DNA from: a virus
Length of the DNA stretch: 29,867 bases
Direction: 5' to 3' (one strand)
Virus record (IMG/VR): IMGVR_UViG_3300021962_000448
Location: 1-29,867 of that record
This document shows, in pieces, positions 13,901 through 28,487 of the stretch (position 1 is its first letter; each line of letters begins with the position of its first letter). The translations under genes were made by a program, and so were the position numbers. The notes below the pieces were generated by a model. The model did not search any database, had not been told where the DNA came from, and was given only the letters and a program-made list of their open reading frames with translations.

Positions 13901-16900
13901 AAAAGATAGAGTCACAGCTGAAAAACCTTTAGATTTTATGACGCTTGAACAGCTTATTAAAATCTACGAAAAGTATGTAGGTAAAGCTGCTTTTGATGCA
14001 GGCGGTGCAGCGCGGGTAGAGGCTCAGAAAAATAGGGCTGCGTTTATAAAGTCGTTAACACCTGAGCAGCGTAAGCTATTTGATGGGATTTTAACTAAAG
14101 CATTTAAGAATGAAGTTCGTACAGAAGCTTTAGGTCGGCGCGGCGCTACCGGCAAGGACAAACGCGCCCAACGAGCAGATGATCGTGCAAAGATAAAAAC
14201 TCAGAAGGACATAGATAAGTACTATGACGCTATAGAGCAGAGAAGGATTAACGCTGAGACAACAGAACGTGATCTTGAGCGCGAGGCGGCGTTAGATACT
14301 ATTGAAGAAGAACAAAGTTTATTAGTTGATGAGAAAGAAACAGAGCAAGCTGCAAAGGCTGGTAAAGAGACGACTATAGAAGACGTTGCGCCAGAGACTA
14401 CATCCGAAGAAGACTCAGATGTAAAAGCCGCTGACAAAATAGAAAATGTTGAAGCAGCCGGACCTGAAGCCTCAAAGCTCAATGCGCGGCGTAACACACG
14501 CACTTTGTCTGCGATCAACGATAGCGGGGATATTAAATCAGTCCTTGCCGAGTTAAGTGGCGGTGAGACTGATTACATATCGGTAGTTGCATCAAAACTA
14601 TCTAAGCTTTTAAAACACTTAGGTCTTACTGACCCGTTAGCAAAACGTATTTCGTTTAGCATGAACATACCTGAAGGTAAAGACGGTATGTTTGACCCTA
14701 AAAGAAATCGTATTTTTATCAGGGGTGAGAACGGTCAGTACACAGGGAAACGCCCTATAGAAGAAGTACTAGAGCATGAAATACTGCACTACTACACTGA
14801 CCACGTAGTTGATAACCGAACAGCTTACATACAGAGTTTACCTCCCGAGGAACGCCCTGCGGCAACGGCTGCACTTAACCGTTTAAATCTTAACTATCAA
14901 AGAGCCAAAGCTGCCCTAGGTGATCAATTTAATATTGATTCACTCAAAGAGTTTATTGCCGAGACATTCTCAAATAAAGAGTTTCAGAATGCTTTAAAGA
15001 AACTTGATGAAGCTGGTAAAACATACAAGCCTACTTCTAAAAGCAGTATGTTTAGAGAGTTTGTTAAAAACGTTATGGCAGCGTTTGGTCTTTCAGACCC
15101 AAGTTCTGCGGTTACATTTAAAGAAGTGTTTGAGGACATAGCGCAAATAATATCTGCGTCAGGAGATGGTATACGTGGTCGTGAAGTATCCTATGCAACT
15201 GGCAAATCTAAAAAGACTCAGCAAACAAAGAAAGCACCGACCCCGTTACGGACTGGCGATATTGGTATTGGTAAGAAAGGTGAAGCCAGCAATGCAGAGT
15301 ACATGCCGCCCGAGGATGTTGTGGGGCGTGATAAGGGTTTCTGGAAGAAGTTGTTTACAACTTCTGAAGGTTGGCAAAACGTTGCGCGGGTATTTCAGAA
15401 TGATCGCTACCCAATTAAGTCATGGCAAGATGTACTAGAGCTTGCTGGTGCAATTATTGACGACCTATCTAAAAACTTTAACAACATCTACACACAGATA
15501 ACGTTGTCATCTGGTCGTGCCAAAGATTTATACGAGCGTCACGTAGCGGGACCCGCTCAAGCTTTAGACACAGCAATTAATGACTTTGCTAAAGCAACAG
15601 GTCTAGATATAAAGAGCGCGATTGCACAGCTTCATATGATTACTGAAGCAATTCACGAAAAAGAACGCCGTGAAGCAAAGTACATAATGCTTGTCCCACT
15701 TAGCCAAAGAGCGGTGGTACGGTTTAACGGTAAATTAATTTCTCCTGCCGCACGTAGGCAGCAGATTGTTGGCGAGCATGACAAGAACATTAAAGGTGAG
15801 TTAGATAACCCGAAGCTGACTGTTGCAGAGGCAAAGCAGTTACGTGCTGAACTTAATTTCCTTGTTGAGAAATACACAGACGAGACTGGGTATAGCCCGT
15901 CAGGTATTAAAGTTGCTGTAGATGGTAACAAGCGTAAAAATACAGATATAAAAAATGAAGCTTATAACGTGGTGGGTGTTGATCCTGACACTGCTGAAGC
16001 ACGTCGAGTTGAGATTGCAGGCAGTAAATTTAAACCACAGATTGATGCTGTGTCTGCTGCGCTTAAAGGTTTGCATGATGCTACTAAAACGCTTGATATG
16101 CAGTCGAATTATTGGTCTAAGCCTGTTAGTAACCGTGTAGCGTTTTACGGGTTTGAGAATTACATCCCGTTAAAAGGTAGGAAAGGCGAGAAGGTTACAA
16201 CGATTGATGAGATGTTAGACTTTACTAGCTCGCGCATGGGCAGTGAAGTTGACAAGCCACAGAGCGCGTTTGGTGGTCGTATGAGTGTAGCTACAAACCC
16301 ACTGTTGCAGAGTATGTCTGATGCAACCCGCTCTGCTCTTCGCGCCGGGCGTAAGAACATTACGCAGTCAATTATTAATGCAATTGACCAAGGGTTGCTC
16401 AATGGTAAAGCTGAGTATAAAAAAGAGCCTATTCCCTTTGAGCAACGCTATGCCGTAGTTCCCGATGAAAATACAATCTTTCATTACGCTGAGAACGGCG
16501 ACATCACGCTTATTAAAATTAAAGATAAACTTCTCTTAAATTCTATTCGTCGCACATACAAAGCAGTTAACCCGTTGGTTGATATTGCAAACAACATCAC
16601 AAGTATGATTGGGCAGTTTCACACACGGTATAACTATTCATTCGGTCCGATGAACTTTGTGCGAGACATTCTTACCAATGCCTTTACTATGGGTGCGGAC
16701 CTTGGGCCAACAAAGTCATTAGCTTTAATTGGTGATATTTCGGCTAAGGTAGCCAACGGTGGGCTGGGTAAAGCCATGCAGTTTATAGCTTTATACAACC
16801 GCAAAGATTTTGCTAGTATTGAAAACCTTGCTAAGAAAGACCCGTTCGTAAGAGACATGCTTGACTTCTACACAGAGGGCGGCATGGTGACGTACATTGA

Positions 16901-18401
16901 CGGTATTGCTATCAAGTCTAATTTTGAGTCTTTGCAAAAAGAACTTGGGCGCGGTGGCATTATGAAGACTAAAGAGCAGGTGGATAAGTTTGTTGATATT
17001 TGGACAAACATGTTTGAGCTTGCAAGTCGTGCTTCTGCTTATGGTGTAGCCAAGCGTAGTTTTATGGCAGACGGTATGGCTGAGCAGCCTGCACGAACTA
17101 AGGCTGCTGCCTACGCTAAGAACCTTGCTAACTTTGAACAGGTTGGTCAGGTTGGTAAGACGATGGGCGCGTTCTATATGTTCTTTAGACCCGCCGCAAC
17201 GGGTGCTGTTCGTGCAATTGAAGCCTTAACACCAGCGTTCCGTTCGCTAGACTCTGCGCTAAAGAGCTTACCTCAAGCTATTCAGATTGGTGCAACACCA
17301 GAAGCTAAGGCGCAGCGTGATACGTTTGTTAAAAACTACAAACAAAAGCAGAAGAACGCTCGAATTATGACGGGTGCATTGTTTGGGTTAGGTATGACAG
17401 CTTACGCTATGTCTATGGCTATGTCGCCTGAAGATGAGTTAGGGCGCAATAAAGTCATGACAGACAACATGCAGCAGTGGTCGCGCTATGCACGGTTCCA
17501 CTTACCTGATGGGTTAGGGTTAGGTAAAGACGTTGTGTTCCAAATCCCTTGGGGCTTCGGTCTAGGCGCGTTTGCTGCTGCTGGGGCGCAGATGGCGGCT
17601 GTTATGTTTGGTAAGAGTACCGTTGCTGATGCAGCGGCTAACATCGCGTTGCAGATTTCACTCGACTCGTTTATCCCAATCCCTGTGTCTAAGATGAACC
17701 CGCTAGAAGACCCGCTTAACTTTGCGCTAGATTCAATTGCGCCAAGCACTGTAAGGCCCATCTTAGAGTTTGCGTTAAATAAGAATGGTCTAGGTCAAAG
17801 TATTTATAACGACTCTAATCGTCGTATTGGTGATGCGTATGTGGGCGGAGATAACATTCCCCAAGTCTACAAAGACATAGCACGTACGTTTGCACAAATT
17901 ACTAACGGCGGCGTAGATTGGAGTCCAAACAGTATGTATTTCTTAGCTAATAGTTACGCTGATGGTGTGTCGCGCATTTTTGAAACAACTTACGGTTTGA
18001 CTGATCTTGCTAGTGGTAGAAAAGAATTTAACGCTAAGACTGATCTACCGTTGGCTGGTTCTTTCTTTGGTACTCGCTCAAACGTAGACTCAAGAGAGTT
18101 CTCTTCTGTCGAGAAAAAAATCTTAGCTAAAGAGCAGCGGTTAAATATGTTTAAGGGTGATCCGCAAGCAATGATGAAGTATCACTCAGAGTACCCGATG
18201 GATGAGGCAATAGTTAAGCATTTTAATACTATGGTTAACGGCGAGCTTAAACGTCTGCGTACTGAAGCAAAGAGTTTTCGTTTGATGGAAGGTATCTCTC
18301 CTAAAGAACGTGAAGCAATGGTTAAGATGCTTACCCTCCAGCAAAACTTAATCAAACACAACATCATTGAGACGTTTAAGGCGTACGACATTAAGCCCTA
18401 G
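10956..18401 (+). CDS. Giant polyvalent virion-type protein with zincin (HEXXH) motif
   Basis: This 2481-aa protein is probably carried in the virion and ejected, as T7 gp16 is. Parts in order: a twice-repeated EFTGxLDxE motif (5-13, 21-29); a Gly/Ala-rich hydrophobic region (about 130-165); a proline-rich tandem repeat (494-535); two related ~60-residue modules (about 543-600 and 749-812); charged helical linkers; a zinc metallopeptidase motif LEHEILHYY with His1274, Glu1275 and His1278, and a candidate third ligand Glu1332 or Glu1336 in EFIAE; then a long C-terminal region (about 1870-2480) resembling the LPD38-type domain of large polyvalent proteins, with hydrophobic segments near 2136 and 2190. 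AAGGTG precedes the ATG. Protein-level work is needed to know whether the peptidase is active. Confidence 0.75.
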   Translation: MAVKEFTGQLDEEYSAPRVREFTGRLDGEVEPQKGPIQAAEDAPDFSRGFGNIIPQIKSTYGAAKALTGVVAQKLGFEDTGRGIMQSGLETMEKGEAESIVKPTDELIGAWEKGGAGAILTDWLPYQMGAGVGNLAQTLGFMAIGAVTGAGVASIPGAVAGAVGRNLIKDGIIAEAQALVKKGAEIEAKNLVETAAKKEVSALARGATAGMVTQSAMQGLGEVGGRAFQEGEKRGERPEDVDLARVLPMAGVHAIADFVADKIMLGAFKPITKEVKNGLILEIGKRILTTGTKELLPEEVQTIAERFGAKLSLTDAEAIRDYINTAGASYAMSVIPGGVGAVRSKLSSPVSEDKTKTTEDALIKAGKTTTEAGTETGLPLFTPVELPDGTVARSQADLDAFNLNPAAPVGATSASVDALTAEIAAMEADNADRAEKLKNKEGNAREQVGRKRKFDEIRAKIDAKKAELAAATVAPSADGDGTNLTPGANGQVTPPVASVPPVASVPPVASVPPVASVPPVAPVPPVAPVPPAAPVPPAREYTAPEQAAVDLVKAVDAGGVPTDTRKINKIARDLGLEVSTKAKPEETLNRIKEAVGRIDTTQAETSVTPVATEVVKETPPAKRITPVRTTQPDGGVRSVVTREEGVTTDKTRYTYDLTVDDEPSQIKIETDNLTGETEAFFVVEGRMVGSGLGIKQLVANGMSPLDAVKRMLPDSDNFKLSEPKAPKQKTTEQKAPAVITPAATARAATPEEQNAINHIDAVDAKGAKFSPAQARKVAEAVGIQIPKATKEKPVTTEDINQILREYVGNLKGVLAGRIRQIAPNVFEGTDTTVTTKKEERVSSKLPTEEPAGQVGSTAGLDTEEDKPKTVAELTAAANVARGDAKKSKVTKAGTETKVNAGVKIAKPVTYVKGYERTKEPSASNFLNQNGYYGEEAPITVERGIETGALDEAFDLMDSTLWEKGVAKELKQLAAEFNKDKKAKDRVTAEKPLDFMTLEQLIKIYEKYVGKAAFDAGGAARVEAQKNRAAFIKSLTPEQRKLFDGILTKAFKNEVRTEALGRRGATGKDKRAQRADDRAKIKTQKDIDKYYDAIEQRRINAETTERDLEREAALDTIEEEQSLLVDEKETEQAAKAGKETTIEDVAPETTSEEDSDVKAADKIENVEAAGPEASKLNARRNTRTLSAINDSGDIKSVLAELSGGETDYISVVASKLSKLLKHLGLTDPLAKRISFSMNIPEGKDGMFDPKRNRIFIRGENGQYTGKRPIEEVLEHEILHYYTDHVVDNRTAYIQSLPPEERPAATAALNRLNLNYQRAKAALGDQFNIDSLKEFIAETFSNKEFQNALKKLDEAGKTYKPTSKSSMFREFVKNVMAAFGLSDPSSAVTFKEVFEDIAQIISASGDGIRGREVSYATGKSKKTQQTKKAPTPLRTGDIGIGKKGEASNAEYMPPEDVVGRDKGFWKKLFTTSEGWQNVARVFQNDRYPIKSWQDVLELAGAIIDDLSKNFNNIYTQITLSSGRAKDLYERHVAGPAQALDTAINDFAKATGLDIKSAIAQLHMITEAIHEKERREAKYIMLVPLSQRAVVRFNGKLISPAARRQQIVGEHDKNIKGELDNPKLTVAEAKQLRAELNFLVEKYTDETGYSPSGIKVAVDGNKRKNTDIKNEAYNVVGVDPDTAEARRVEIAGSKFKPQIDAVSAALKGLHDATKTLDMQSNYWSKPVSNRVAFYGFENYIPLKGRKGEKVTTIDEMLDFTSSRMGSEVDKPQSAFGGRMSVATNPLLQSMSDATRSALRAGRKNITQSIINAIDQGLLNGKAEYKKEPIPFEQRYAVVPDENTIFHYAENGDITLIKIKDKLLLNSIRRTYKAVNPLVDIANNITSMIGQFHTRYNYSFGPMNFVRDILTNAFTMGADLGPTKSLALIGDISAKVANGGLGKAMQFIALYNRKDFASIENLAKKDPFVRDMLDFYTEGGMVTYIDGIAIKSNFESLQKELGRGGIMKTKEQVDKFVDIWTNMFELASRASAYGVAKRSFMADGMAEQPARTKAAAYAKNLANFEQVGQVGKTMGAFYMFFRPAATGAVRAIEALTPAFRSLDSALKSLPQAIQIGATPEAKAQRDTFVKNYKQKQKNARIMTGALFGLGMTAYAMSMAMSPEDELGRNKVMTDNMQQWSRYARFHLPDGLGLGKDVVFQIPWGFGLGAFAAAGAQMAAVMFGKSTVADAAANIALQISLDSFIPIPVSKMNPLEDPLNFALDSIAPSTVRPILEFALNKNGLGQSIYNDSNRRIGDAYVGGDNIPQVYKDIARTFAQITNGGVDWSPNSMYFLANSYADGVSRIFETTYGLTDLASGRKEFNAKTDLPLAGSFFGTRSNVDSREFSSVEKKILAKEQRLNMFKGDPQAMMKYHSEYPMDEAIVKHFNTMVNGELKRLRTEAKSFRLMEGISPKEREAMVKMLTLQQNLIKHNIIETFKAYDIKP
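12435..12560 (+). repeat. 18-bp tandem repeat coding PPVASV units
   Basis: Seven consecutive 18-base units lie in frame inside the giant gene. The first four are CCACCCGTTGCTTCAGTA (Pro-Pro-Val-Ala-Ser-Val), the next two change one base (CTTCAG to CTCCAG, giving PPVAPV), and the seventh reads PPAAPV. A partial unit follows. The identity of the first four units points to recent slippage or unequal recombination. The encoded segment would be an extended proline-rich spacer between the N-terminal region and the downstream modules. Confidence 0.95.
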
Positions 18402-18604
18402 GATACGCGCCAAGACCTGACACCAAGGTGACCATCTTTACTTGCAACAAAAGATTTCATCTTGATGCCAGCTTTCTTGGAGCCGCTGTCTATCATGTAG
18501 ATTAATTCGGCAGGGCGCAAGGTGGGGATAAAAAAACTATCCCCAACTTTCATATGTTCCATAGGGAACAGCCACTCCGGTTCTAAAATCTTATCGGGCG
18601 TCAT
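18398..18604 (-). CDS. Small protein of unknown function downstream of primase-helicase
   Basis: This 68-aa protein reads from an ATG overlapping the primase-helicase stop (ATGA at 18601-18604), so it is the last gene of the minus-strand module. It has a central VGDSFFIPTLRPAELIYMID segment, a basic stretch (SKKAGIKMKSF) and an ending GHLGVRSWRVS that looks like a small beta-rich nucleic-acid-binding fold. I do not recognise its family. Its stop codon shares CTAG (18398-18401) with the stop of the convergent giant gene. A role linked to replication is inferred from co-translation with the primase-helicase. Confidence 0.7.
   Translation of the reverse strand: MTPDKILEPEWLFPMEHMKVGDSFFIPTLRPAELIYMIDSGSKKAGIKMKSFVASKDGHLGVRSWRVS
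18523..18545. other. Perfect 8-bp inverted repeat inside the 68-aa gene
   Basis: TGGGGATA (18523-18530) and TATCCCCA (18538-18545) flank a 7-base A-rich loop. It lies 122 bases from the point where the two transcription units converge. Neither strand has a following T-run, so it is not a standard intrinsic terminator, but it is the clearest hairpin near the convergence. Confidence 0.35.
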
Positions 18605-21465
18605 TCTTCTTTACTGAATAAACCATCAATCTCTTCGGGGTTGAAGTGATAACACCACACGTTGCCACCACCGCCGCTACCCTTCCAGCCTTTGTTCAAC
18701 CGACTACGTACAGAGCCGATCAAGCGTGGCTTCTTGGTATCACCGCCAATATAAATCTGTTTCATCTCACGTTCAAAGTTTGCCGAGCTTACCTGCAACT
18801 CAGCAAGGTACTTCTTAAAGTGAGTGACCGACACCTGCAAGATACCCTCCTCAATATCAAAACGCGCAGCGAGTTCGTTACGTGGCGCGTTCTTAACTGT
18901 GTCGCCCTCCAGCACAAGGATGTTTTGGATATTGCTGTTGATGTATTCATTCAAAATTGATGGGTAATCAGTTGTGTGCTTAGGCGCTACGTTGTCACGG
19001 ATGTTAATCATCTCATGTAATACTTTGTTGTACACACGTTCAAGATTAACTTCGATGATGCCTGCCTCTACAGCAATCTCGCCGCCACCGAAGGCTGCAC
19101 CGATTAAGTTTTGAAAAAACCGTTGCTCAGGTGGGTCGCCGAAGTCTTTAATAAATCGTGCAATCCATCTGTCTACAGCTTCATAGACTGCCTTGTCACC
19201 AATCTCATAGAGCCGTTGAACGTACATCACACCAGCATGACCGTAGTTGTAATTCATCGGGTCAAATATCTCTCTGCCGAGAGTGCCTGTAAGAAACGGA
19301 ATTTTCTTGACTTCAAACTCAACCAAACGCGCTGCTTCACCAACAGGGGTTTTCTTCCATGCCATTAGCTTCGCATACATCGGATGGTTTGCAGTCATGA
19401 AGTTGATTAGAGATGCTGCTAACTCAAATTCACGTTCAGCGTTCACGGACCCCTGCATCTTGATCTTGGCTTTACCGTTAGATACTTTATGCACAAGCAT
19501 CGCAATTGATTCTGGCTTCTTGTCGCCAACTTCATCAACGCCAAGCATAATGTTATGCAATGCAAGATACCTGCCTGTCATACCGTTGTCGGTTGCATCA
19601 AACACACTGAGGTCTTTTGGGTTACCAAAGATACTAAGTCCCGCATACATCGCGCCAGTCTTTGCTGAACCTGACGGACCTGTGAAGCATACTGATATAC
19701 CTGCCGTAGATGTATATTCCATGAGAGGCGAACCAAACCCGCACAACAGCCCAAAGATTTGCATATCAAGCTGCCCGTCAGGGCGCTCTAACTGATCCAT
19801 GCACCAACGCCATTTAGCGTACGTGCCTTTTGGCTCTACGTGTTTTGCTACGCCTTTAATCATGGGCGACACAGCAGAGTCTACTAACTTGCCATCTTCA
19901 TCAATTTCTTTGTGACCTAACACAAATGCTCTCTTCGGCGGGTTTATAGAATCACGGTCAAGCTTTTCTGTCCAACCAAGTTGAGTACGTATTTGGTCTG
20001 CCTTGTATACATTTATCATATATTGATACCATTTGTTAATGTAGTTGTAGAGCCTTTGTGATTCTTTGGGTTCACAAGGGACACCTTGAAATACCACCAT
20101 CTTTCTTAAATCCTCAGCCGATTGCGCGATTGGGATTAAGAATTCTCTTGCAGGATCGTTTGGCAATTCAAGACGCATCAACATACACTCACCGTCTATC
20201 TTGCCGTACACCCTGCGGATAGGCCAAAAATCATGTGCCAAGAACAGCACAGGATCAGGTTGTGTTTTCTTCTTTGTTTCTTTATCGAATGTTGCAGCGG
20301 GCATGTAATATATGCCACCGTTCTCGCCACGCACGAATGGCTTTAAGAATCCCGGAAGTTCCTGAAGCTTTTTGGTATCCGGTTTCTCCCAAACTGTGTC
20401 CTCTTTATGCGTGGTTGCCGCAGGTATAAACTCTCTTCCAAGCTCAATTGGTCCTGTGATTCGTCCTCTATGAATACATCCTTCGCAGAGACTTGGTTCA
20501 TCTCGCGCAAATCCTTCGCACGTTCGGATAGAATCAAAAGACTTGGCTTTTGCAATTGTTTTTTCAGGTGTGTAGTCACGATGACCCTCGGATATTAATT
20601 GGATTGCTTCTTCGCCATCTTCGCAGCGTATGGCAACTGCCAGCGCCCCAGTCCATGATGTGTAGGGTGGGTTCTGTGGGTTCATTGCGACTTCTGCAAT
20701 TTGTTTGCAGCCTTCGCCCTCAAGACTTTTGATAACAATGGTTCTGAAGTTGTACTTGAAGTTATCAAGCTTCTTGAACGCTATGGTATCTTCGTCTAAG
20801 CCTTTCGGTATTGATGCAAGAATATCGTTGACTGGTTCAACTTCTTCACTGCTACCAAGAAAATCTTTGAATGATGAGAAAGAATACGTGGTTAATTCTG
20901 TGCTGATTAACCCAGTTGGGCTAGGCGGGTCTGTTTTGTAGTTGAGCGAGTCTGCATAACGCATGATCCGCGCCATGTCTGCCATCACCGCAGGGTCACA
21001 GAATAACTTGGGGGTGCAATACTCTTTAAATAACTGAGCAATAGGCAGGTACTCTGCTGCCGGTACATCTTCATCCAACAACCAATATGCATGAACCCCA
21101 CGCCCTGAACTAACGCGCACAGGCTCGGGTAACCCACTCTCCGCGATGAACGTATCAAGCGCAACAAGTGCGGCGTCAGCATCAACGTAGCCTTTGTTTT
21201 CTGCTGCCTTCTCTTCGCCTACATCTAGATCAATAAATAACGATCTACAGAACAAAGCGTCTTTCGCCTTCCTACTAAACTCATCGAACGTGCTTACAGC
21301 TATAAATATGTTTTGCTTTCGCTTTTTGAAGTCCTCAACTAAATCAAATATCTCGTCAAACGTCTCTGTAAACTTATTCCTAGTTGCCCCTGTTGCCGGA
21401 TCAATGCCGGTAACACAGTAGACGCCCTGTGTTGGCAACGCCTTCTCATAAAATTGTTTTATCAT
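18601..21465 (-). CDS. Primase-helicase: AEP primase fused to a P-loop helicase
   Basis: This 954-aa protein primes and unwinds DNA at the phage fork. The N-terminal archaeo-eukaryotic primase domain shows FIDLD (Asp79, Asp81), SSGRGVHAYW (His125) and ARIMRYADSLNYK (about 165-177), the three AEP motifs. A cysteine group C316, C327, C330 may bind zinc. The C-terminal half is a DUF927-like helicase/ATPase with Walker A GPSGSAKT (596-603) and a Walker B-like MLGVDEVGD. The frame is open to a GTG at 21501, but that codon lies inside a terminator hairpin, so the ATG at 21465 is preferred; its ribosome site is weak. It overlaps the small downstream gene by ATGA. No separate helicase loader or DnaG-type primase is seen in the window. 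Confidence 0.85.
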   Translation of the reverse strand: MIKQFYEKALPTQGVYCVTGIDPATGATRNKFTETFDEIFDLVEDFKKRKQNIFIAVSTFDEFSRKAKDALFCRSLFIDLDVGEEKAAENKGYVDADAALVALDTFIAESGLPEPVRVSSGRGVHAYWLLDEDVPAAEYLPIAQLFKEYCTPKLFCDPAVMADMARIMRYADSLNYKTDPPSPTGLISTELTTYSFSSFKDFLGSSEEVEPVNDILASIPKGLDEDTIAFKKLDNFKYNFRTIVIKSLEGEGCKQIAEVAMNPQNPPYTSWTGALAVAIRCEDGEEAIQLISEGHRDYTPEKTIAKAKSFDSIRTCEGFARDEPSLCEGCIHRGRITGPIELGREFIPAATTHKEDTVWEKPDTKKLQELPGFLKPFVRGENGGIYYMPAATFDKETKKKTQPDPVLFLAHDFWPIRRVYGKIDGECMLMRLELPNDPAREFLIPIAQSAEDLRKMVVFQGVPCEPKESQRLYNYINKWYQYMINVYKADQIRTQLGWTEKLDRDSINPPKRAFVLGHKEIDEDGKLVDSAVSPMIKGVAKHVEPKGTYAKWRWCMDQLERPDGQLDMQIFGLLCGFGSPLMEYTSTAGISVCFTGPSGSAKTGAMYAGLSIFGNPKDLSVFDATDNGMTGRYLALHNIMLGVDEVGDKKPESIAMLVHKVSNGKAKIKMQGSVNAEREFELAASLINFMTANHPMYAKLMAWKKTPVGEAARLVEFEVKKIPFLTGTLGREIFDPMNYNYGHAGVMYVQRLYEIGDKAVYEAVDRWIARFIKDFGDPPEQRFFQNLIGAAFGGGEIAVEAGIIEVNLERVYNKVLHEMINIRDNVAPKHTTDYPSILNEYINSNIQNILVLEGDTVKNAPRNELAARFDIEEGILQVSVTHFKKYLAELQVSSANFEREMKQIYIGGDTKKPRLIGSVRSRLNKGWKGSGGGGNVWCYHFNPEEIDGLFSKEE

Positions 21466-21481
21466 TTCTTGAGTAGAGTCT

Positions 21482-21506
21482 AAAAAAGCGTGAGTGATCA
21501 CGCTTT
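21482..21506 (-). terminator. Intrinsic terminator just before the primase-helicase gene
   Basis: On the minus strand AAAGCGTGA, a TCAC loop and TCACGCTTT form a perfect 9-bp stem, running into six T in total (21487-21482). The primase-helicase ATG at 21465 follows after 16 bases. Transcripts from the upstream HTH gene must pass this signal to reach the primase-helicase gene. Confidence 0.75.
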
Positions 21507-21517
21507 GGTGTGGGGGT

Positions 21518-21543
21518 TAGGGGGCATGACACCCCCTATTTTT
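21518..21543 (+). terminator. G+C-rich hairpin with plus-strand T-run
   Basis: TAGGGGG (21518-21524) and CCCCCTA (21532-21538) form a 7-bp stem with a 7-base loop, followed on the plus strand by TTTTT (21539-21543). In that orientation it is a textbook intrinsic terminator, although no plus-strand gene ends here. On the minus strand it lies directly behind the stop of the HTH gene (21542) and in front of the second hairpin, so the pair may act in both directions, blocking antisense transcripts as well. Confidence 0.6.
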
Positions 21544-21856
21544 ACTGTAGTTCTTGACCGATCATATCCTCAATGTATTTTTTAGCCGCTAGAGTATTAC
21601 GTGCAGGTAGAACACCATTCTGCAAGTCTTTCTCAACAAGGTCAATAAACACTTCTACTATATGCTCGTTCTTCTCGCGGATGGGTCTGCCACGGAACCA
21701 GCTATACAATGACATACGGGAAACATTTAACGCAACCGCTACGTACTTGGCTGGTAAATTTGCTTTGACGCAGGATTTCGCAAGCGTAACCCCAATCCTT
21801 CGGGGATTACCCTTATGCATCGCAATTAAAAACTTTTCGCTATATGTCCGTGGCAT
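21542..21856 (-). CDS. Small helix-turn-helix DNA-binding protein
   Basis: This 104-aa basic protein contains an HTH pattern at about residues 33-58 (NLPAKYVAVALNVSRMSLYSWFRG): helix, turn, then a recognition helix with Ser, Arg and Trp exposed, as in phage regulators of the transposase/Fis-like type. The remainder is helical and charged. The ATG at 21856 has a strong AAGGAG site 5 bases away. Two hairpins, one an intrinsic terminator, lie right behind the stop, so the gene can end a transcript. A regulator of early transcription, or of the terminator behind it, is an inference. Target sites are unknown. Confidence 0.7.
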   Translation of the reverse strand: MPRTYSEKFLIAMHKGNPRRIGVTLAKSCVKANLPAKYVAVALNVSRMSLYSWFRGRPIREKNEHIVEVFIDLVEKDLQNGVLPARNTLAAKKYIEDMIGQELQ

Positions 21857-21865
21857 TCCTGCTCC

Positions 21866-22732
21866 TTATTTCTTAGACCATTTCTTCATAACATCAACAA
21901 CGTTCTTCTCAGCGTCACCCTCTGAGGCTGGCTTTGATTCGCGCTTGATAGGCTCGTTCTCTTTTGCTAACTGCTCAAAACCACCATCGTCTGCGGATGC
22001 TTCATTGCTAGTATCAGCTTGGTAGACGCTCATCTTAATAGCTGCTTCTGCTGCTGCACTCTTAGCCTGCTGTGCGATGATTGGCAATACATCATCAGGT
22101 GTTGCGCTGTCAGGAGAGAACACAACTTTCGGCGTAGGTGACTTTGTATCGAACGCCATACGGGTCACAACGCGCCCAGCACTTACGTTGTTAGCCGCCA
22201 AGTGCTGAATGTACGGACGGAAAGGACGACGACCATTATCCTCTTTGCCGAACGCTGACGTAGCAGGCAACACCAACTGCATCACATCCCCTGCGGGGTC
22301 ATTAGGCAATACAACAGCAGTGCGCCATGACAATCGGCACTTAGTACCCGTACCACTGTCGCCTGAACCCTTAACGCTGTACTGACACTCGTTACAAGAT
22401 TTAGCTGGCGGGTTCTTCACTTCTGCATCAGGTGCTTCAGAGTCACTTGACCAACAAGCGGGGCTAACCTTCTCGCCTTCCTTGTAGCCTTGCATATACA
22501 ACTGGCGCGATGCCTTGTGTGCCATCTTAACGAAGATGACATTCATAAAGCGGTCTTCAATCGTGCCAACTTCTTTACCACCCGCATACTTGCGGAACAC
22601 GCCACCTTTAATGGAGATGCGTTTAACACCACCACGCCCTGCGCCACCTGCAACGGCAAGGGTATCTTCATCAAGACCTTCTACGGTTAGTGATGTGTTT
22701 TGGGATAGCAATGTGATTAGATCGTTACTCAT
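21866..22732 (-). CDS. Putative single-stranded DNA-binding protein with zinc motif
   Basis: This 288-aa protein lies between replication genes in the place where comparable phages carry their ssDNA-binding protein. It has a Gly-rich, basic beta-like N-terminal half (KRISIKGGVFRKYAGGKEVG) and four cysteines in a zinc-ribbon arrangement (Cys93, Cys113, Cys116, Cys132). The C-terminal third is Ala/Glu/Ser-rich and disordered, ending DVMKKWSKK. An acidic tip like that of classical SSBs is absent. AAAGGAAA precedes the ATG at 22732. The SSB role is inferred from position and composition; a recombination mediator is an alternative. Confidence 0.5.
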   Translation of the reverse strand: MSNDLITLLSQNTSLTVEGLDEDTLAVAGGAGRGGVKRISIKGGVFRKYAGGKEVGTIEDRFMNVIFVKMAHKASRQLYMQGYKEGEKVSPACWSSDSEAPDAEVKNPPAKSCNECQYSVKGSGDSGTGTKCRLSWRTAVVLPNDPAGDVMQLVLPATSAFGKEDNGRRPFRPYIQHLAANNVSAGRVVTRMAFDTKSPTPKVVFSPDSATPDDVLPIIAQQAKSAAAEAAIKMSVYQADTSNEASADDGGFEQLAKENEPIKRESKPASEGDAEKNVVDVMKKWSKK

Positions 22733-22756
22733 TTAATTTCCTTTGACTGAATTTGA

Positions 22757-23158
22757 CTATTTAGATGTAGGCTTACGTACCGTGATGCCAAACTCGCGCA
22801 TCACATTTACGCCGGGGGGTAGACCATCTTCTTTGTGTTCCGACATAAATTCTTTGAAGTTGCCTTGGTGTATACGACGCTCAAATAAATCAACCGCCTG
22901 ATGCTCCAAAATAAACTTCTTAAAGTTGTCCCAATCGTTGCAGTAAAAACGCTCGTTCATCTTGCGAATCACTGTTCCGTTTTGGGTTTTAATACTGTCT
23001 GCATTAGTATCATTGCAGATTGAAAGCATCGACTGCTCTAGGACTGCCAGCTCTTCCTTTAGCACCTTGTCTTTGGTTTCATACTCGTTGAGTATCTTTT
23101 CACGTTCACTTCTTATTGTCAAGTATATTTGTACTAATTCTTCAAGATTCATCTTCAT
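22757..23158 (-). CDS. Coiled-coil phage protein of replication/recombination cluster
   Basis: This protein of about 133 aa starts with an N-terminal coiled coil (residues 5-55, LVQIYLTIRSEREKILNEYE and EELAVLEQSML), followed by a compact domain with SIKTQNGTVIRKMN, a DWDNF motif and an ending LPPGVNVMREFGITVRK. I recall this arrangement from small proteins next to SSB or recombinase genes in many phages; Gam/Gp157-like nuclease inhibitors are superficially similar but not proven. Two ATGs (23158 and 23152) are possible starts; a GGAA lies at 23159-23162. Both overlap the end of the SNF2 helicase gene. A longer start (23227) would lie well inside the helicase and is unlikely. Confidence 0.65.
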   Translation of the reverse strand: MKMNLEELVQIYLTIRSEREKILNEYETKDKVLKEELAVLEQSMLSICNDTNADSIKTQNGTVIRKMNERFYCNDWDNFKKFILEHQAVDLFERRIHQGNFKEFMSEHKEDGLPPGVNVMREFGITVRKPTSK

Positions 23159-24716
23159 TTCCGATAGTTTGTTTATATAGATCAACCAGCTTCTCATGCG
23201 AATCGACTTTGCCTTGAAGCATCTCATACATCTTGCGTTCCACTTCCGACCCCTGTAGGTGTACGACAGTCATACTGTTTTTCTGACCCACTCGGTCTAT
23301 TCGGGCAACGCATTGCAAGTATGTTTCTACGCTCATCACAGGCGACCAAAACACTACGGTATTCGCAGCAGTTAGTGTCACACCATGCGAGGCAGATTGC
23401 GGTTGAATGACTAAGACCCTTGGTGACTCTGCGGTTTGAAACCTATTGATAATTTCGGCCCGCTCCCTTGCTGTTACATCTCCGTTTATTATTTCATTGC
23501 TGACTCCTTGTTCTGTTAAATACCGGGCCACTACACTGATCGTATGTCGGTAGGGTACAAAAACTATGACCTTATGTTCGGTCTCATCTAGTACTTCTGA
23601 CAATGTGTTCAGTCGTGGGCTAACATCAAACTCAATTACATCGTGTTTATCGGTGTAGACAGCACCACCTGATATTTGTAACAACTTACTTAACTTCGCA
23701 GCGGCATTGACTGCGCTGATTTCTTCGCCTGCTGCCTCAACTAGCAACTGACTCTTTAAAATTCTGTAGTACTTGTTCGCCTGTGCGGTAAGCGGAACTA
23801 AGCGGGTTTGATACATAACCTCGGGCAAGTCCAAACACTCAGCCTTGGTAAATCGGATGGCGGGTTGCAACGCCTCGTACACAGATTGCTTGGAAGTTGG
23901 TTTAGCTACCCAACTGAACCTAGACACAGGGTGCATCACCTTATCGCGCCAAGCCGTGAAGAACTTTGGTACGTTGGCAGGAGCTACAAGTCGTGCAAGA
24001 CCAAACGCATCAAGCGGGGACTGCGAAGCAGGAGTGCCAGTCAGCATCCATAGTCTTGTGTTTGGCTTTAAAAGTTTTGCTAGAGTTTTCCAACGGCGGG
24101 TCGTGGCTGTTTTATAAGCGTTCGCTTCATCGACCACAATCAGGTCGAACCCTAGCTTGAGTATTTCGTCCTGCACGATGCCAACACCATCGTAGTTGAT
24201 GATGACAAACTCGTACGCACCGTTGATGATTTTCTTACGCCGCTTTGCGTCACCGTAGGCAACTGCAACGCTTCTGTGCATGGCGGTTTTAAATATATCC
24301 GCTTGCCATGCTGAGTACATAATTGATAGAGGGCAGATCACCAACACACGCTTGACTAACTTTTGTGTCATTAGATAGTCAGCAGCCCAAATCACTGAGG
24401 AGGTCTTGCCTGTGCCTGCCTCGTTAAAGCAAAACGCCCGATCACGCAAAGTCAAAAACGCTGCGGTTGTTATCTGATGTTTGAATGGGGTGAAGAGGCC
24501 CGGAAACTTATAGTCTCGCGTGATTGGAGAAGGTATTTGATCATGGTCGTATATCTTTGTGAGGGTCTGCATCTCTTCGAGACCCCAATGCACAAGCAAG
24601 TCGGCATGGTCATCACTAGAGTACAGTATCTCGCTCTTCTCTATATTACGCATTGCTGCGTGTGCTGACTCTACATCTAGAACTAATCTTACCGCACTAT
24701 TATCGACTATTTTCAC
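23142..24716 (-). CDS. SNF2-type superfamily 2 helicase/ATPase
   Basis: This 524-aa protein has the complete SF2 motif set: a Q-motif-like FKHQITTAAF (78-87), Walker A GTGKT (101-105), DEAN box (196-199), TGTP motif III (226-229), and motif VI QCVARIDRVGQ (468-478). The arrangement with a single compact core and VGQ ending is that of small phage SNF2 helicases such as those near PolA in podoviruses. It should remodel or unwind DNA at forks or during recombination. It starts at GTG (24716) with AAGGA 6 bases away. An intrinsic terminator lies just upstream of that ribosome site. The 3' end overlaps the coiled-coil gene. Confidence 0.9.
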   Translation of the reverse strand: MKIVDNSAVRLVLDVESAHAAMRNIEKSEILYSSDDHADLLVHWGLEEMQTLTKIYDHDQIPSPITRDYKFPGLFTPFKHQITTAAFLTLRDRAFCFNEAGTGKTSSVIWAADYLMTQKLVKRVLVICPLSIMYSAWQADIFKTAMHRSVAVAYGDAKRRKKIINGAYEFVIINYDGVGIVQDEILKLGFDLIVVDEANAYKTATTRRWKTLAKLLKPNTRLWMLTGTPASQSPLDAFGLARLVAPANVPKFFTAWRDKVMHPVSRFSWVAKPTSKQSVYEALQPAIRFTKAECLDLPEVMYQTRLVPLTAQANKYYRILKSQLLVEAAGEEISAVNAAAKLSKLLQISGGAVYTDKHDVIEFDVSPRLNTLSEVLDETEHKVIVFVPYRHTISVVARYLTEQGVSNEIINGDVTARERAEIINRFQTAESPRVLVIQPQSASHGVTLTAANTVVFWSPVMSVETYLQCVARIDRVGQKNSMTVVHLQGSEVERKMYEMLQGKVDSHEKLVDLYKQTIGNEDES

Positions 24717-24881
24717 AATTATCCTTGACTAAAAATACCCCTTACGGGGGTAAGTCGGTTGAGCCTGACGCGCTGGAGAAGTCGGAAAACCTTTTAAGCA
24801 CCGCCCAACTGACACGGTTAATGGGTCAAGCAAACTTCCAAAGCCACCCCCCGCCGCACACTCATGCCTAACTGCGGCGTA
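24717..24881 (-). promoter_or_regulatory. 165-base leader in front of the SNF2 helicase gene
   Basis: This is one of the largest non-coding gaps in the window. On the minus strand it begins with an inverted repeat (TGCGGCG/CGCCGCA at 24852-24858 and 24873-24879) directly behind the previous gene's stop, continues with two CCGACTT direct repeats, and ends in an intrinsic terminator followed by the helicase ribosome site. I see no convincing sigma-70 promoter. A 28-codon open frame starting at GTG (about 24808-24814) runs through the terminator, without a clear ribosome site. A regulatory leader or small RNA is possible but unproven. Confidence 0.45.
24731..24752 (-). terminator. Intrinsic terminator before the SNF2 helicase
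   Basis: On the minus strand TACCCC, a CGTAA loop and GGGGTA form a 6-bp stem followed by TTTTT (24735-24731). The helicase GTG start at 24716 comes only 14 bases later, with AAGGA between. The signal therefore sits inside the operon, in front of a gene and not at the end of the cluster. Confidence 0.7.
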
Positions 24882-25193
24882 TTATTTCTTACGTTCTTTC
24901 TTACTCACTTCTGAAACCAAATTACCTTTTGAGTCGCGCTTAAACGAACGGTTCTTTGCCGCGCTCTCAATCCGCAAACCATTCTTATTAGAGCCACCTT
25001 TATCAAGTGCTTTAACGTGTGCAACATCCTTACCCTCACGTGCATCGGCTTTACCGTTACCATTACCGTCAGGCATTTCTTTGTCTAACTTACGCCGACC
25101 ACGTTGGCGCTCCATGCGGCGATCATTTTCACCTCTAGCTAGTTGCTGTTGGTATTCTTTTGCATACGGGCGGGGCTTATTGACGTAGGGCAT
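24882..25193 (-). CDS. Small basic HNH-like protein
   Basis: This 103-aa, strongly basic protein carries KDVAHVKALDKGGSNKNGLR followed by an IESAAKNRSF segment, which matches the core of HNH nucleases: His59 for the first metal/catalytic site, the GG turn (66-67), Asn71, and Asn81 where the third His normally lies, so it is an H-N-N variant. The N-terminal half is Arg/Gln/Lys-rich and probably binds DNA. It starts at ATG 25193 with AAGGAAAG upstream and shares one base with the stop of the nuclease gene before it (TAATG). A longer frame upstream lies inside that gene and is rejected. Nuclease activity is likely but not certain because the cysteines of many HNH proteins are missing. Confidence 0.6.
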   Translation of the reverse strand: MPYVNKPRPYAKEYQQQLARGENDRRMERQRGRRKLDKEMPDGNGNGKADAREGKDVAHVKALDKGGSNKNGLRIESAAKNRSFKRDSKGNLVSEVSKKERKK

Positions 25194-25849
25194 TATCTTT
25201 CCTTGTGATAGTCGCAGGTTCGCACCGGACACCATCCGCACAGAGGCGTGGGATTGGGCATCCACGCATCATTTTCGTACGACATTTGCATCCGCGCAAG
25301 GTCACCGCTAAAACTATTCCAGAGTTCTTTAATCTGGCTACGCTTGTACTCTTCATCAATAAAAGTATCATGCATGACGAACAGCAGCCCAGCCTTGATA
25401 TGGTTAACTTCAGGGAAGTGGGCAAACACCATAAGTGCCATAAGTTTCAACTGTTTTGGGTCAGGGTACTTATTGCTGCCTGTCTTGTAGTCAACAATGT
25501 ATGCCACATCCCTATCAATAATCAGTAAATCCGCGATACCCCGTACCCACCGTTCTTTACTGTTGTACTCACAGGCATTGCCGCCTTGGTCAAGAGCCAT
25601 CTTATGTTCAGGATAGCGTGTGCCATAAATATCAAGCAGGGTATCAAGCATCCCTGAAAACCGTTTATAGTTCTCAGCAAGGGGTGTGCCATCTTTGACA
25701 TAATTTTCAAGAGCCTTATGCACTTCGTTACCGTAAGTCATCTCAGGAGTCATACGTTTGAAGAAACGCTTTAGTACTTTAACTTCCTGATATTGCTTAG
25801 GACAGTTAACGTATTCCTTTAACGACGAGAACGACCATGTGAAGTCCAT
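25193..25849 (-). CDS. PD-(D/E)XK nuclease, Cas4/RecB-like, with probable Fe-S cluster
   Basis: This 218-aa protein is an exonuclease-type member of the PD-(D/E)XK family. It shows the N-terminal FSSLKEYVNCPKQY motif, GNEVHKALE (His44, Glu48), GIADLL (Asp107), IVDYKTG (Asp120, Lys122) and a QLKLMAL motif with Gln133. Cys16 together with Cys204, Cys207 and Cys212 in the C-terminal CGWCPVRTC matches the four cysteines that hold a 4Fe-4S cluster in Cas4 and AddB-type nucleases. No CRISPR genes are nearby; its place beside PolA points to DNA degradation, recombination or replication. AAAGGG precedes the ATG and a possible promoter lies just upstream. Confidence 0.88.
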   Translation of the reverse strand: MDFTWSFSSLKEYVNCPKQYQEVKVLKRFFKRMTPEMTYGNEVHKALENYVKDGTPLAENYKRFSGMLDTLLDIYGTRYPEHKMALDQGGNACEYNSKERWVRGIADLLIIDRDVAYIVDYKTGSNKYPDPKQLKLMALMVFAHFPEVNHIKAGLLFVMHDTFIDEEYKRSQIKELWNSFSGDLARMQMSYENDAWMPNPTPLCGWCPVRTCDYHKER

Positions 25850-25877
25850 AACTACCCTTTGAAAAGTTTATCTATAC

Positions 25878-25906
25878 ATATTACACAGAAATTGTGCGCT
25901 CGGCAA
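25878..25906 (-). promoter_or_regulatory. Possible sigma-70 promoter for the Cas4-like nuclease
   Basis: In the gap of 75 bases behind polA, the minus strand has TTGCCG (25906-25901) and TAATAT (25883-25878) with a 17-base spacer. Each box matches the consensus at four of six positions. The start site would lie near 25870, about 20 bases before the nuclease ATG. The rest of the gap holds no gene. Confidence 0.35.
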
Positions 25907-25924
25907 TGCATCCTGCAACTATAT

Positions 25925-27796
25925 TTAGCACTCGCCATATGAATCCCCGTACTTAGCTTCACAAGCCACGGGTAAACCCTTAGCCCACTCGGGCGCGATA
26001 GACATAACTTGGGTAATAAACCCAATCGCTTCTTGGACTTCCCCCGCTGGCACAACACATACAGCCGCATCGTGTACCGTGAGAACTACCTTGTACCTTT
26101 TTTGGATTTCGAGCATCTGCTGCCCGACGATGATCCTCGCCAACGCCTGCACTACGTTCTCTACTACTGTGCCGCCCCATAGATGTACCGTTCCTTTGCG
26201 TGATGTGTATGCATATTTAGGTTTGCCATCTTCGCTTACATCCTTTAGATCAGGGTAGCGTATATACAGCCCGTTGGGTAGGCGTATACCTTCTTTGCAC
26301 ACTCGCAAGCAATTGTGCTTGCCGTACCATACCTCCTTGGATTTCTCGTCATTCCAACCCGCTATCTTAGTTAGCATCTTGTCGCCATCACGCCACAGCG
26401 TAATGATCTTGTCGTTTGTGTTGCGGTATAGCTCAACAATATCTAAACACTTGCTCTCCTCAAGGTCTACTCCCGGGGGCGTGGTCTTCAAGGTGTGTTG
26501 TAGTTTTAACGCTCCTGTTCCGTAACCAAGCCCCAGAATACAAGTTTTACCCACAAACCGCTCAACAGGGTCAGCTTTAGAGATTTCACGCTTGTATATC
26601 TTTGATGCAAACACGGAGTACACATCTTCACCGTTAGCAAATGATGTGACCAAATCTTCTTGACCTGCCAACCATGCAAGCACCCGCGCCTCAATCTGTG
26701 AGGAGTCACAGTTAATCACCACATGACCGTAGGGCGCGATGATAGCGTTCTTCAGCGTTTTCTTTTTCTTGTCACGGCTTGGCAAGTTCTGAAAATTTAC
26801 CTTGTCCACCCCTGACCACCGACCTGTGTGTGCGCCGTAGTATTTAAGTGGGATGGGTAGCCGGCTTTTGTTGCGAGCGCCAACGCCTATGAATCTCTCT
26901 ATTCTTGACTCTTCGATGGTGGATTTAGTCCCAAGCCTTACTGCACACAACTGTTGAATGAACGGGTCTTCATGGGCGGTAAGCAATATAAAGCCTTCAT
27001 CGTTTTTTGCAAGTGCAAGCGTCTGTTTGCCTGTGGTCTTGCTTAACTTCATCGGGGGTTCGACGCCATACTCTTTTAATAACTCAGCGAACTGTTTATT
27101 GCTTGCGAGCTTTTTGCGTACATATTCTTCAGTCTCGCATTTTAATTTCTCCATCAATGTGCCAAGCATAGCCAGCTTTTCTTGGCGAACCTCACTCAGT
27201 CGATCTTCAAGCATCGCGTCATCAACCTCAAGCACAGGGTCGATGAACATCCGCAACGTCATGTCAATCAGCGAAAGTTCCTCGTCGGGATAATTAGATG
27301 CCAGTTCCCTAAATAGTGCCTTCGTGAGGTCAACGTCATTCTTGCAGTACTCGCCATACTGCGCTAAGTCCTCGGGCGTGAAGTCTTTGCGCTTTTTACC
27401 CTTGGCGTCATTCACCTCAGTACCCTTCGCACCCAGTTCATAGCGTTCAGCAAGAGCCTTGAGCGACCCACCCGCATCCACCCCATGTATGGATCGCGCC
27501 ATGCACAGAGTGTCATAATAGAAAGCGGGTCTGATATTAAACTTCCATGCAAGGATTGCACCATCAAACATTGTGTTGTGGCACAGCAAAGCACTCTCAG
27601 CCCAATCAAACTGCATCAGGAATGACTTTGTTTCCTCACGACTGCCTGAGAACCAGACGGCTGGCGCATCGTCAATCTTCACACCTACGCCGATTACTTC
27701 AAACTTAGTTTTGTTAATATACTCTTCAGTAGTCAACTTGCTAAGTGTGTAGTCTTGGGCGTAGTACGTCTCAAAGTCTAGTGTGATGAAGCTCAT
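25925..27796 (-). CDS. polA: Family A DNA polymerase with 3'-5' exonuclease
   Basis: This 623-aa protein replicates the phage genome. The N-terminal exonuclease has motif I LDFET (Asp7, Glu9), motif II HNTMFD and motif III YCKND, so proofreading looks intact. Polymerase motif A is CDSSQIEAR (Asp364), motif B is RFVGKTCILGLGYG (Arg413, Lys417, Tyr425), and motif C is VHDA (Asp576). The residue equivalent to E. coli Phe762 is Leu421; Tyr or Phe are the main alternatives in other phages. Motif A has Ala where E. coli has Leu711. No 5'-3' exonuclease domain is present, as usual in phage PolA. AGGA precedes the ATG, which overlaps the upstream 34-aa gene (ATGA). Confidence 0.95.
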   Translation of the reverse strand: MSFITLDFETYYAQDYTLSKLTTEEYINKTKFEVIGVGVKIDDAPAVWFSGSREETKSFLMQFDWAESALLCHNTMFDGAILAWKFNIRPAFYYDTLCMARSIHGVDAGGSLKALAERYELGAKGTEVNDAKGKKRKDFTPEDLAQYGEYCKNDVDLTKALFRELASNYPDEELSLIDMTLRMFIDPVLEVDDAMLEDRLSEVRQEKLAMLGTLMEKLKCETEEYVRKKLASNKQFAELLKEYGVEPPMKLSKTTGKQTLALAKNDEGFILLTAHEDPFIQQLCAVRLGTKSTIEESRIERFIGVGARNKSRLPIPLKYYGAHTGRWSGVDKVNFQNLPSRDKKKKTLKNAIIAPYGHVVINCDSSQIEARVLAWLAGQEDLVTSFANGEDVYSVFASKIYKREISKADPVERFVGKTCILGLGYGTGALKLQHTLKTTPPGVDLEESKCLDIVELYRNTNDKIITLWRDGDKMLTKIAGWNDEKSKEVWYGKHNCLRVCKEGIRLPNGLYIRYPDLKDVSEDGKPKYAYTSRKGTVHLWGGTVVENVVQALARIIVGQQMLEIQKRYKVVLTVHDAAVCVVPAGEVQEAIGFITQVMSIAPEWAKGLPVACEAKYGDSYGEC

Positions 27797-27897
27797 TTAA
27801 ATCCTAAACCTTTAGCAAAGTCGCCTGTATAACCATTAGCAAATTCTTCAGGGTGGGTCTTGGTTCTTTCGATTAGGATTGCTACTGCTGATAACAC
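27793..27897 (-). CDS. 34-aa protein translationally coupled to polA
   Basis: Starting at GTG 27897 with GGAG 6 bases upstream, this frame encodes 34 residues beginning MLSAVAILIERTKTHPEEFA and ending GYTGDFAKGLGFK. Its TGA overlaps the polA ATG (ATGA at 27793-27796), so the two should be coupled. The first segment is hydrophobic, then HPEEF leads into a Gly-rich end. A TTG start four codons earlier is possible but has no ribosome site. The overlap, ribosome site and protein-like sequence argue it is real; function is unknown. Confidence 0.55.
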   Translation of the reverse strand: MLSAVAILIERTKTHPEEFANGYTGDFAKGLGFK

Positions 27898-27957
27898 GGC
27901 GTTCTCCAATTACTGATCAGGGGTAGGTGAGATGCTAAATAAGCATTTCGTACAGGT
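27898..27957 (-). promoter_or_regulatory. Leader region between terminator and polA operon
   Basis: These 60 bases follow the terminator and precede the small gene. They contain a short inverted repeat ATGCT/AGCAT (27932-27936, 27942-27946) and a poor promoter candidate: TTTACC and TAGCAT on the minus strand with 17 bases between, four of six matches in each box. A promoter restarting transcription of polA here is possible, not proven. Confidence 0.25.
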
Positions 27958-27983
27958 AAAAAAGGGGGCGCAACGCGCCACCC
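27958..27983 (-). terminator. Intrinsic terminator after the HTH-DUF3310 gene
   Basis: On the minus strand GGGTGGCGC, a GTT loop and GCGCCCCCT form a GC-rich stem with one internal mismatch and a terminal wobble pair, followed by TTTTTT (27963-27958). It lies 9 bases behind the stop of the DUF3310 gene and in front of the 34-aa gene and polA. Confidence 0.75.
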
Positions 27984-27992
27984 TAGTACTGA

Positions 27993-28487
27993 TTACTTCT
28001 TAAGATTATTTATTTCACGATTCAAATACCACTGAGCTTTCTCAAGGTCTTTCAACTTGTCACCCTTGTGTTCGCTGCGTGTAATGTACTTGATCACGTT
28101 GCCAAGGTTGTACCCCAACTCTTTTGCCTCAATGAAGTCGATGGTCTCAATGCCCCCTGTGGTGTAGTGCGGAGGGTTGTTCACCATATCAGTACTATAG
28201 GGCTTTACTACATTTGTAGTAGGCGACACCTGCATCCTAATTTTATTGATGTGTTGCGTTACCGACTCGCCCCGCGCCTTGGCTAGAGCATCTCTTAAAC
28301 CAATCTCTGACATAGTGAGTGACTTAATTTTAACTTTAGCTTTGGGCTTGGCTTCGATCTCAGCTTTGTGCTTGCTACGAACATTGTAGACATAGCTTTT
28401 TGATAGCCCTGTCTTTTTAATGATCTCAGCAGGGGTAAGACCTTGCTTGCACAACTCAATAACTTGTTCGGTTTTATTGCGTTTCAT
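27993..28487 (-). CDS. HTH domain fused to DUF3310 protein
   Basis: This 164-aa protein has two parts. Residues 5-40 form a helix-turn-helix (EQVIELCKQGLTPAEIIKKT, then GLSKSYVYNVRS) like that of resolvase/terminase small-subunit type DNA-binding proteins. Residues 103-160 match DUF3310, with NNPPHYTTGGIETIDFIEA, LGNVIKYITR and KDLEKAQWYLNREI. DUF3310 is common in phage early regions; it has been annotated as nucleotide kinase-like, without firm support known to me. A basic linker (KPKAKVKIKS) joins them. AGGAGAAG precedes the ATG. The gene lies last before an intrinsic terminator, so it can end the first early transcript. The fusion suggests a DNA-bound regulatory role (inference). Confidence 0.82.
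   Translation of the reverse strand: MKRNKTEQVIELCKQGLTPAEIIKKTGLSKSYVYNVRSKHKAEIEAKPKAKVKIKSLTMSEIGLRDALAKARGESVTQHINKIRMQVSPTTNVVKPYSTDMVNNPPHYTTGGIETIDFIEAKELGYNLGNVIKYITRSEHKGDKLKDLEKAQWYLNREINNLKK

Follow-up and report, generated by a model that had tools for sequence, protein, structure and literature searches.

A structured RNA ahead of an SNF2 helicase gene and a conserved terminator ahead of a primase gene in the replication operon of uncultivated aquatic phages

The DNA analysed here, referred to as the window over its whole length, is a linear IMG/VR virus record of 29.9 kb whose plus strand carries late genes and whose minus strand carries a replication operon. The operon comprises, in order, a nucleotide-kinase-like gene, polA, a RecB-like nuclease, a small gene, an SNF2 helicase, two small genes, an HTH-like gene and a primase-helicase. 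The genes that matter for the following are:

27993-28487, minus strand: nucleotide-kinase-like gene, upstream of the first terminator
23142-24716, minus strand: SNF2-family helicase of 524 aa (phrog_62, E = 1.7e-104), start codon GTG at 24716
21542-21856, minus strand: HTH-like gene of 104 aa, preceding the primase leader, with a normal Shine-Dalgarno sequence
18601-21465, minus strand: primase-helicase with a DUF927 domain (PF06048, E = 4.5e-19), start codon ATG at 21465

This gene order matches that of the virioplankton PolA Leu762 Group I, found beside RecB-like and SNF2-like genes (PMC6302109), and the window PolA motif, K-T-C-I-L-G-L-G-Y-G as read from the sequence, has leucine at the Leu762 place. 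Among cultured phages no near DNA relative of the window was found, and the closest SNF2 and primase proteins from that source are less than 60% identical. Relatives were collected by SNF2 (at least 80 loci) and by primase (47 loci), with identities down to about 40%; the MIKQF start of the primase-helicase is kept among them. The HTH-like gene has relatives in 109 fetched loci and gave no match in Pfam and PHROG searches. The product of 22757-23167 bears the PHROGs label 'minor head protein'; a sub-threshold likeness to the Mu Gam/Sipho_Gp157 domain, of the end-protection type, hints faintly at an identity that would suit a replication operon better. On the plus strand, positions 10956-18401 encode a late protein of 2481 aa whose sole recognised part is a C-terminal LPD38 domain (large polyvalent protein) and which is without PDB, PHROG or NCBIfam match. 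The idea that it is a virion RNA polymerase reading hairpin promoters was rejected, as PHROG, NCBIfam and PDB sequences gave no match beyond the LPD38 domain.

An earlier note on this DNA described three intrinsic terminators along the minus-strand operon, before polA, SNF2 and the primase-helicase, and reasoned that helicase and primase must be expressed by read-through. The three hairpins are indeed present and clean, each with five or six T behind it: 27984-27963 before polA (site 1, -14.8 kcal/mol, then T6), 24752-24736 before SNF2 (site 2, -8.2 kcal/mol, then T5) and 21506-21485 before the primase (site 3, -10.6 kcal/mol, then T6). The spacing was also described correctly, the T-run ending 14 nt upstream of GTG 24716 and 16 nt upstream of ATG 21465, and a sequence scan found no sigma-70-like promoter between terminator and start codon. 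Counted as a class, terminator-like sites are no more frequent in the window than chance predicts (17 observed, 16.8 expected), so that relatives had to decide. Judged by this comparison, the three hairpins are three unrelated features: an ordinary terminator, the last hairpin of a structured RNA and a conserved primase terminator.

At site 1 (27958-27984, minus strand: hairpin and T6, an ordinary terminator behind the nucleotide-kinase-like gene), the upstream neighbours of polA differ from phage to phage. About one sixth of the polA junctions in relatives have a terminator, with differing hairpins, where a non-replication gene ends. The comparison thus identifies the hairpin as an ordinary signal at a gene end, gained and lost together with the gene upstream, and a role in operon control, as proposed before, is not borne out, since it is not conserved at polA. 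Close by, a tiny ORF of 34-38 aa (27793-27909) has a C-terminal end (AKGLGFK) in common with a different, longer gene upstream of polA in the relative L001. It may be a gene remnant, because only its tail matches longer genes in relatives.

The leader of SNF2 offers a different picture. Over the 100-200 nt before this gene, 63 distinct relatives share GTTAGGCATGAGTG, AACCATGTCAGT, CCGACT and xCCCC-CGTAA-GGGGx in fixed order. Their arrangement in the window, where element position i corresponds to coordinate 24881 - i, is as follows:

24734-24880, minus strand: whole structured SNF2 leader RNA, about 147 nt (covariance model R1, 128 bits; covariation)
24852-24879, minus strand: P1 hairpin, stem 24879-24873 / 24858-24852 with the 14-nt loop GTTAGGCATGAGTG, double-sided changes in 7/7 pairs
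24811-24868, minus strand: pseudoknot between GGCATG of the P1 loop (24868-24863) and CGTGTC (24816-24811)
24823-24852, minus strand: P2, a variable hairpin, typically GGGG..CCCC, missing in some relatives (alignment A1) and left out of covariation scoring
24758-24809, minus strand: P3, 24809-24803/24764-24758 and 24801-24798/24773-24770, double-sided changes in 11/11 pairs, end loop variable and pyrimidine-rich
24736-24752, minus strand: P4 hairpin TACCCC-CGTAA-GGGGTA, the second 'terminator' of the earlier note
24722-24726, minus strand: SNF2 Shine-Dalgarno sequence AAGGA

The element fills the gap before SNF2, a gap of its own that directly follows the preceding stop codon. From the end of P4 to the start codon there are 19 nt in the window and 19-30 nt overall, and the Shine-Dalgarno sequence is matched over at least 4 nt in 57 of 58 relatives.

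Folded as a single sequence, the 174 nt before SNF2 are just as stable as shuffles (z = -0.04), which implies that the structure is missed by this approach. Comparative analysis revealed it. For an alignment of 42 leaders (A1), a structure of 30 pairs was named (P1, pseudoknot, two-part P3, P4), in which 93.4% of cells are paired compared with 31-41% when the partners are slid by 1-3 columns. Double-sided changes occur at 25 of the 30 pairs, and none of 500 shuffles was as good. A wider alignment (A2, 63 distinct rows) gave 375 double-change cells over 28 pairs against 120.6 in shuffles. The pseudoknot is paired in 98% of cells in A1 and 98.9% in A2, even though R1, whose E-values are rough, was built without it. 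Its downstream partner reads CATGTC in the 42-leader structure, and covarying versions include GGTGTG/CGCATC, GGTGCA/TGCATC, AACATG/CATGTT and GGCATG/CATGCC. A competing GTC/CGAC pairing at the base of P3 was discarded, as it shows one-sided changes only, none of them compensatory, whereas the pseudoknot covaries. A switch in which the GGGG of P2 pairs with the CCCC of P4 was likewise dismissed: inspection of A1 by eye found P2 without GGGG in L016 and L026 and absent in L024 and L025. Wobble pairs also report on the nature of the molecule. G-U outnumbers A-C by 209 to 39 cells, and by 74 to 1 in the pseudoknot, which indicates that the element works as sense-strand RNA rather than as DNA. It shows the mark of a cis-regulatory structured RNA, a conserved, covarying fold in a leader near the start codon of one gene.

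P4, a hairpin of 5-7 G+C-rich pairs with a CGTAA or CGCAA loop (GNRA-type), is present in 60 of the 63 distinct leaders. The T-run behind it, to which it owed its likeness to a terminator, is not conserved: only 12 of the 60 have five T in the 8 nt behind the stem, and apart from the window, L003 and L025 none has a real run. It is missing in L001, L002 and L056, two of which (L001 and L056) have SNF2 proteins 97% identical to that of the window, and most relatives continue with mixed sequence such as CACGTTTTAACA. Because the hairpin is part of a larger RNA fold and the T-run is nearly always absent, site 2 cannot be a shared terminator that needs antitermination. Covariation across related leaders, suggested earlier as a check on the terminators, is thus strong in front of SNF2, and there it supports the larger fold rather than a terminator.

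How widely is this RNA distributed? In a scan with R1, matches above 50 bits were obtained in 74 of 80 SNF2 loci, among the matches listed, and in 36 primase loci, one per locus and immediately upstream of SNF2; these loci do not count as independent events. Six of the 80 leaders, again among the matches listed, are without the element. One of the SNF2 leaders (L057) retains P4 alone, and in another phage (L011) SNF2 has lost the element, while a different small gene of this phage is preceded by a degenerate copy that ends beside the Shine-Dalgarno sequence of that gene. When 2.9 million viral contigs were scanned with a pattern made of two conserved boxes, 48 matched, all 48 directly before SNF2. 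The same pattern matched a single site in bacterial genomes, in Methylophilales bacterium HTCC2181, where a 75.9-bit copy lies in a gap 112 nt upstream of a UvrD/helicase-IV-like gene and has the 3' end GGGCTTTATTTTATT. A second Methylophilaceae genome (G754) has a 58.5-bit copy about 80 nt upstream of a DedA-like gene, with the 3' end GGGGTATTTTTATT. Both chromosomal copies are free-standing with a T-rich tail. A 30-bit match in a genome of the order (G003, L179:1080-1186) is a weak but plausible distant relative in which P1, P3 and a perfect GGCGTG/CACGCC pseudoknot are retained; the strong hairpin that follows is a different one, and a tRNA gene is close by. The chromosomal copies L180:3318-3441 and L183:6511-6642 lie in a variable region about 3 kb from relatives of one small gene (L180:287-544, L183:9832-10083); that gene is also present in seven other Methylophilaceae genomes, whose near-syntenic regions lack the RNA even in a filter-free search. 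Genome searches were positive in 2 of 187 Methylophilaceae and, weakly (30 bits, G003), in one of 300 genomes of the order. No further copy was found in 398 genomes of the phylum with strict filters, the use of which makes absence in these large searches a soft result. Viral contigs and plasmids contained no distant copies of the G003 variant. Among cultured relatives the element is absent; Rollin, RHph_TM27A, Effie and Xp15 have no gap of such size before SNF2, and a blastn search of INPHARED with the element was negative. Given the chromosomal copies, the RNA can in principle exist apart from SNF2; phages nearly always have the two together.

In Rfam 15 the window had no match at E <= 5, seven relatives had none at the gathering threshold, and the chromosomal copies had none either, short slices giving chance matches only. 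A literature search, which reached few subscription papers and preprints, found no description of the element, and for this reason we regard it only provisionally as a new, uncatalogued RNA. Known systems provide some orientation. The leader of T4 gene 32 mRNA folds into a pseudoknot that serves autogenous translational control. Here, too, a phage replication gene has a pseudoknot in its leader, ahead of the Shine-Dalgarno sequence, but the SNF2 element is much larger (P1-P4), differs in sequence, topology and gene, and also occurs in bacterial chromosomes. The ssNA-helicase motif of Weinberg et al. 2017 is reportedly a candidate structured element that precedes helicase genes in metagenomic sequence. 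It resembles the present RNA in just these respects; the window and the relatives scanned match no Rfam 15 family, a library in which inclusion of that motif is unconfirmed. The motif is named in PMC10044938. The methylophage Melnitz carries a glutamine riboswitch, an example of a phage-borne riboswitch (PMC9004378). Both are structured RNAs of phages of aquatic bacteria including Methylophilaceae, that of Melnitz acting in cis, but the SNF2 element matches neither the glutamine riboswitch nor another Rfam family, and its P4 has no conserved switching partner.

The leader of the primase-helicase contains a feature of another kind:

21518-21538, minus strand: G-rich hairpin ahead of the primase terminator; relatives often have a G-run..C-run hairpin at this place that ends in ACCC
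21482-21506, minus strand: conserved intrinsic terminator, stem 21506-21485, T6 21487-21482
21473-21480, minus strand: conserved box GACTCTAC between T-run and ATG, CTCTAC in the window and ACTCTGC in most relatives

The 80 nt before the primase are more stable than shuffles (z = -4.5), and a strong hairpin with a U-run, ending 15-25 nt before the ATG, is found in 72 of 78 distinct leaders of this gene; in L013 and L014 the terminator is present below threshold. The same test applied to control genes was positive in 1/85 (ssDNA-binding-like), 0/79 (HTH), 0/85 (gene before SNF2) and 1/68 (nuclease). The stems have no common sequence (AAGCGTGA, GGCAGGA, GGGCAGAGC, GGCGGGAG and others), and such turnover is the trace expected from selection for a terminator alone. 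On these comparisons site 3 is a real, gene-specific terminator. A Shine-Dalgarno match of 4 nt exists in only 1 of 69 primase leaders, compared with all leaders (80/80 and 77/77) of the two genes upstream. The CTCTGC box occurs as a leader element once per locus and only before the primase, for which reason a repeated phage promoter was rejected. Further upstream, positions 21518-21538 look terminator-like on the plus strand itself (TAGGGGGCATGACACCCCCTA TTTTT), so that two divergent hairpins stand back to back; L084 has a weaker T-run. In L094, L095, L100, L102, L125, L015, L027 and L123 a stretch GGGG(G)AAAGC...(variable)...GAGTACCCCACCC lies between HTH gene and primase terminator, and the AAA/GAGTA inside it looks loop-E-like. 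This stretch may be an additional RNA domain; at the corresponding place the window shows no more than a short G5/C5 hairpin. A comparable arrangement is known from Escherichia coli, whose dnaG has a weak ribosome binding site. The rpsU-dnaG-rpoD operon contains an internal terminator, T1, between rpsU and dnaG (PMC7863352). In both cases a conserved Rho-independent terminator directly precedes a primase gene with a poor ribosome binding site within an operon, the differences being the phage operon, the unrelated DUF927-type primase-helicase and the extra conserved CTCTGC box.

Taken together, the comparisons make it rather probable that the locus combines a cis-acting leader RNA on SNF2, a true intrinsic terminator acting as attenuator before the primase and an ordinary terminator near polA. 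The SNF2 leader, with its pseudoknotted P1, P2, P3 and GNRA-type P4, would act as RNA and most likely in cis, a role favoured by the fixed position, the distance of P4 from the start codon and the intact Shine-Dalgarno sequence. Binding of a protein or ligand could then set or regulate the translation, or the stability, of the SNF2 mRNA. A search for a conserved alternative pairing partner of P4 found none, and a classical switch is therefore not evident. The P3 loop (TCCTT) is complementary to the Shine-Dalgarno sequence in 21 of 58 leaders, with 6.9 expected, and this complementarity is missing in the window; an anti-Shine-Dalgarno role of P3 was set aside, the complementarity being enriched and not universal.

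The free-standing chromosomal copies make a trans-acting small RNA, which in phages would be cut from the operon transcript or have a promoter of its own, a serious rival, if an unlikely one. The copies in HTCC2181 and G754 have terminator-like ends, the weak match in G003 has a strong hairpin of its own, and the phage element occupies its own gap right behind a stop codon. In contrast, phage copies are tied to SNF2 and end beside its Shine-Dalgarno sequence in 48/48 contigs, mostly without a terminator at the 3' end, and no promoter was seen upstream of the element.

For the primase, read-through of the terminator is the simplest explanation, as the terminator is conserved at about 40% primase identity in a leader with neither promoter signature nor Shine-Dalgarno sequence. 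The terminator would be a constitutive or regulated attenuator and, with the missing Shine-Dalgarno sequence, may keep the primase-helicase low relative to the upstream ssDNA-binding-like and HTH genes. In its simplest reading, primase synthesis would be low and dependent on read-through. The read-through expected by the earlier note is thus upheld for the primase and not for SNF2, where relatives mostly have no T-run; of its three terminators, those before polA and the primase stand as an ordinary and a conserved one. It also seems unlikely that the hairpin and U-run serve translation, in a non-Shine-Dalgarno start with the U-rich stretch as standby site and the CTCTGC box, termination being incidental. 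Such a start would explain why 68 of 69 leaders do without a Shine-Dalgarno sequence and why L055, having lost the hairpin, keeps the box and a U-rich stretch (the box reads CACTGC in L108/L109), but the stems change completely and always stay G+C-rich hairpins that abut the U-run, the arrangement of a terminator.

The original proposal, three terminators with helicase and primase expressed by antitermination through modification of RNA polymerase by a phage or host factor, now appears improbable. A genuine terminator with no promoter behind it precedes the primase, where regulated antitermination is possible, and P4 carries T5 in this window. Against the proposal as a whole, relatives keep the site-2 hairpin and have lost the T-run in nearly all cases, and site 1 is unconserved at polA. 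No put/boxA-like element was recognised on reading the window, and the families matched include no known antiterminator. The HTH protein, put forward as controller, is encoded by what appears to be merely a conserved neighbour. A self-cleaving ribozyme, suggested by the compact pseudoknotted fold and the invariant residues in its loops, is very improbable with no match to an Rfam ribozyme family. A role as DNA, for instance as a single-strand origin or a loading site for primase, would suit the replication gene cluster and is the least credible reading, given the wobble bias and an orientation that is invariably that of the gene.

These results carry a caution, in that a hairpin with a T-run in a single genome can be a piece of a larger conserved RNA. 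The primase terminator parallels T1-dnaG of E. coli, unrelated primase operons in which a terminator is combined with a weak start site. Few large structured RNAs are found in phage leaders, and the SNF2 element, absent from Rfam, occurs in uncultivated aquatic phages of a common group (PolA Leu762, RecB-like nuclease, SNF2). With such strong covariation its secondary structure can be fixed for direct biochemical tests. We tentatively suggest that it could represent a new class of pseudoknotted, GNRA-capped RNA, fixed before SNF2 in a large group of aquatic phages and sporadically free-standing in host-type chromosomes, that might sense a replication-linked protein or metabolite and would thereby control helicase synthesis during infection.
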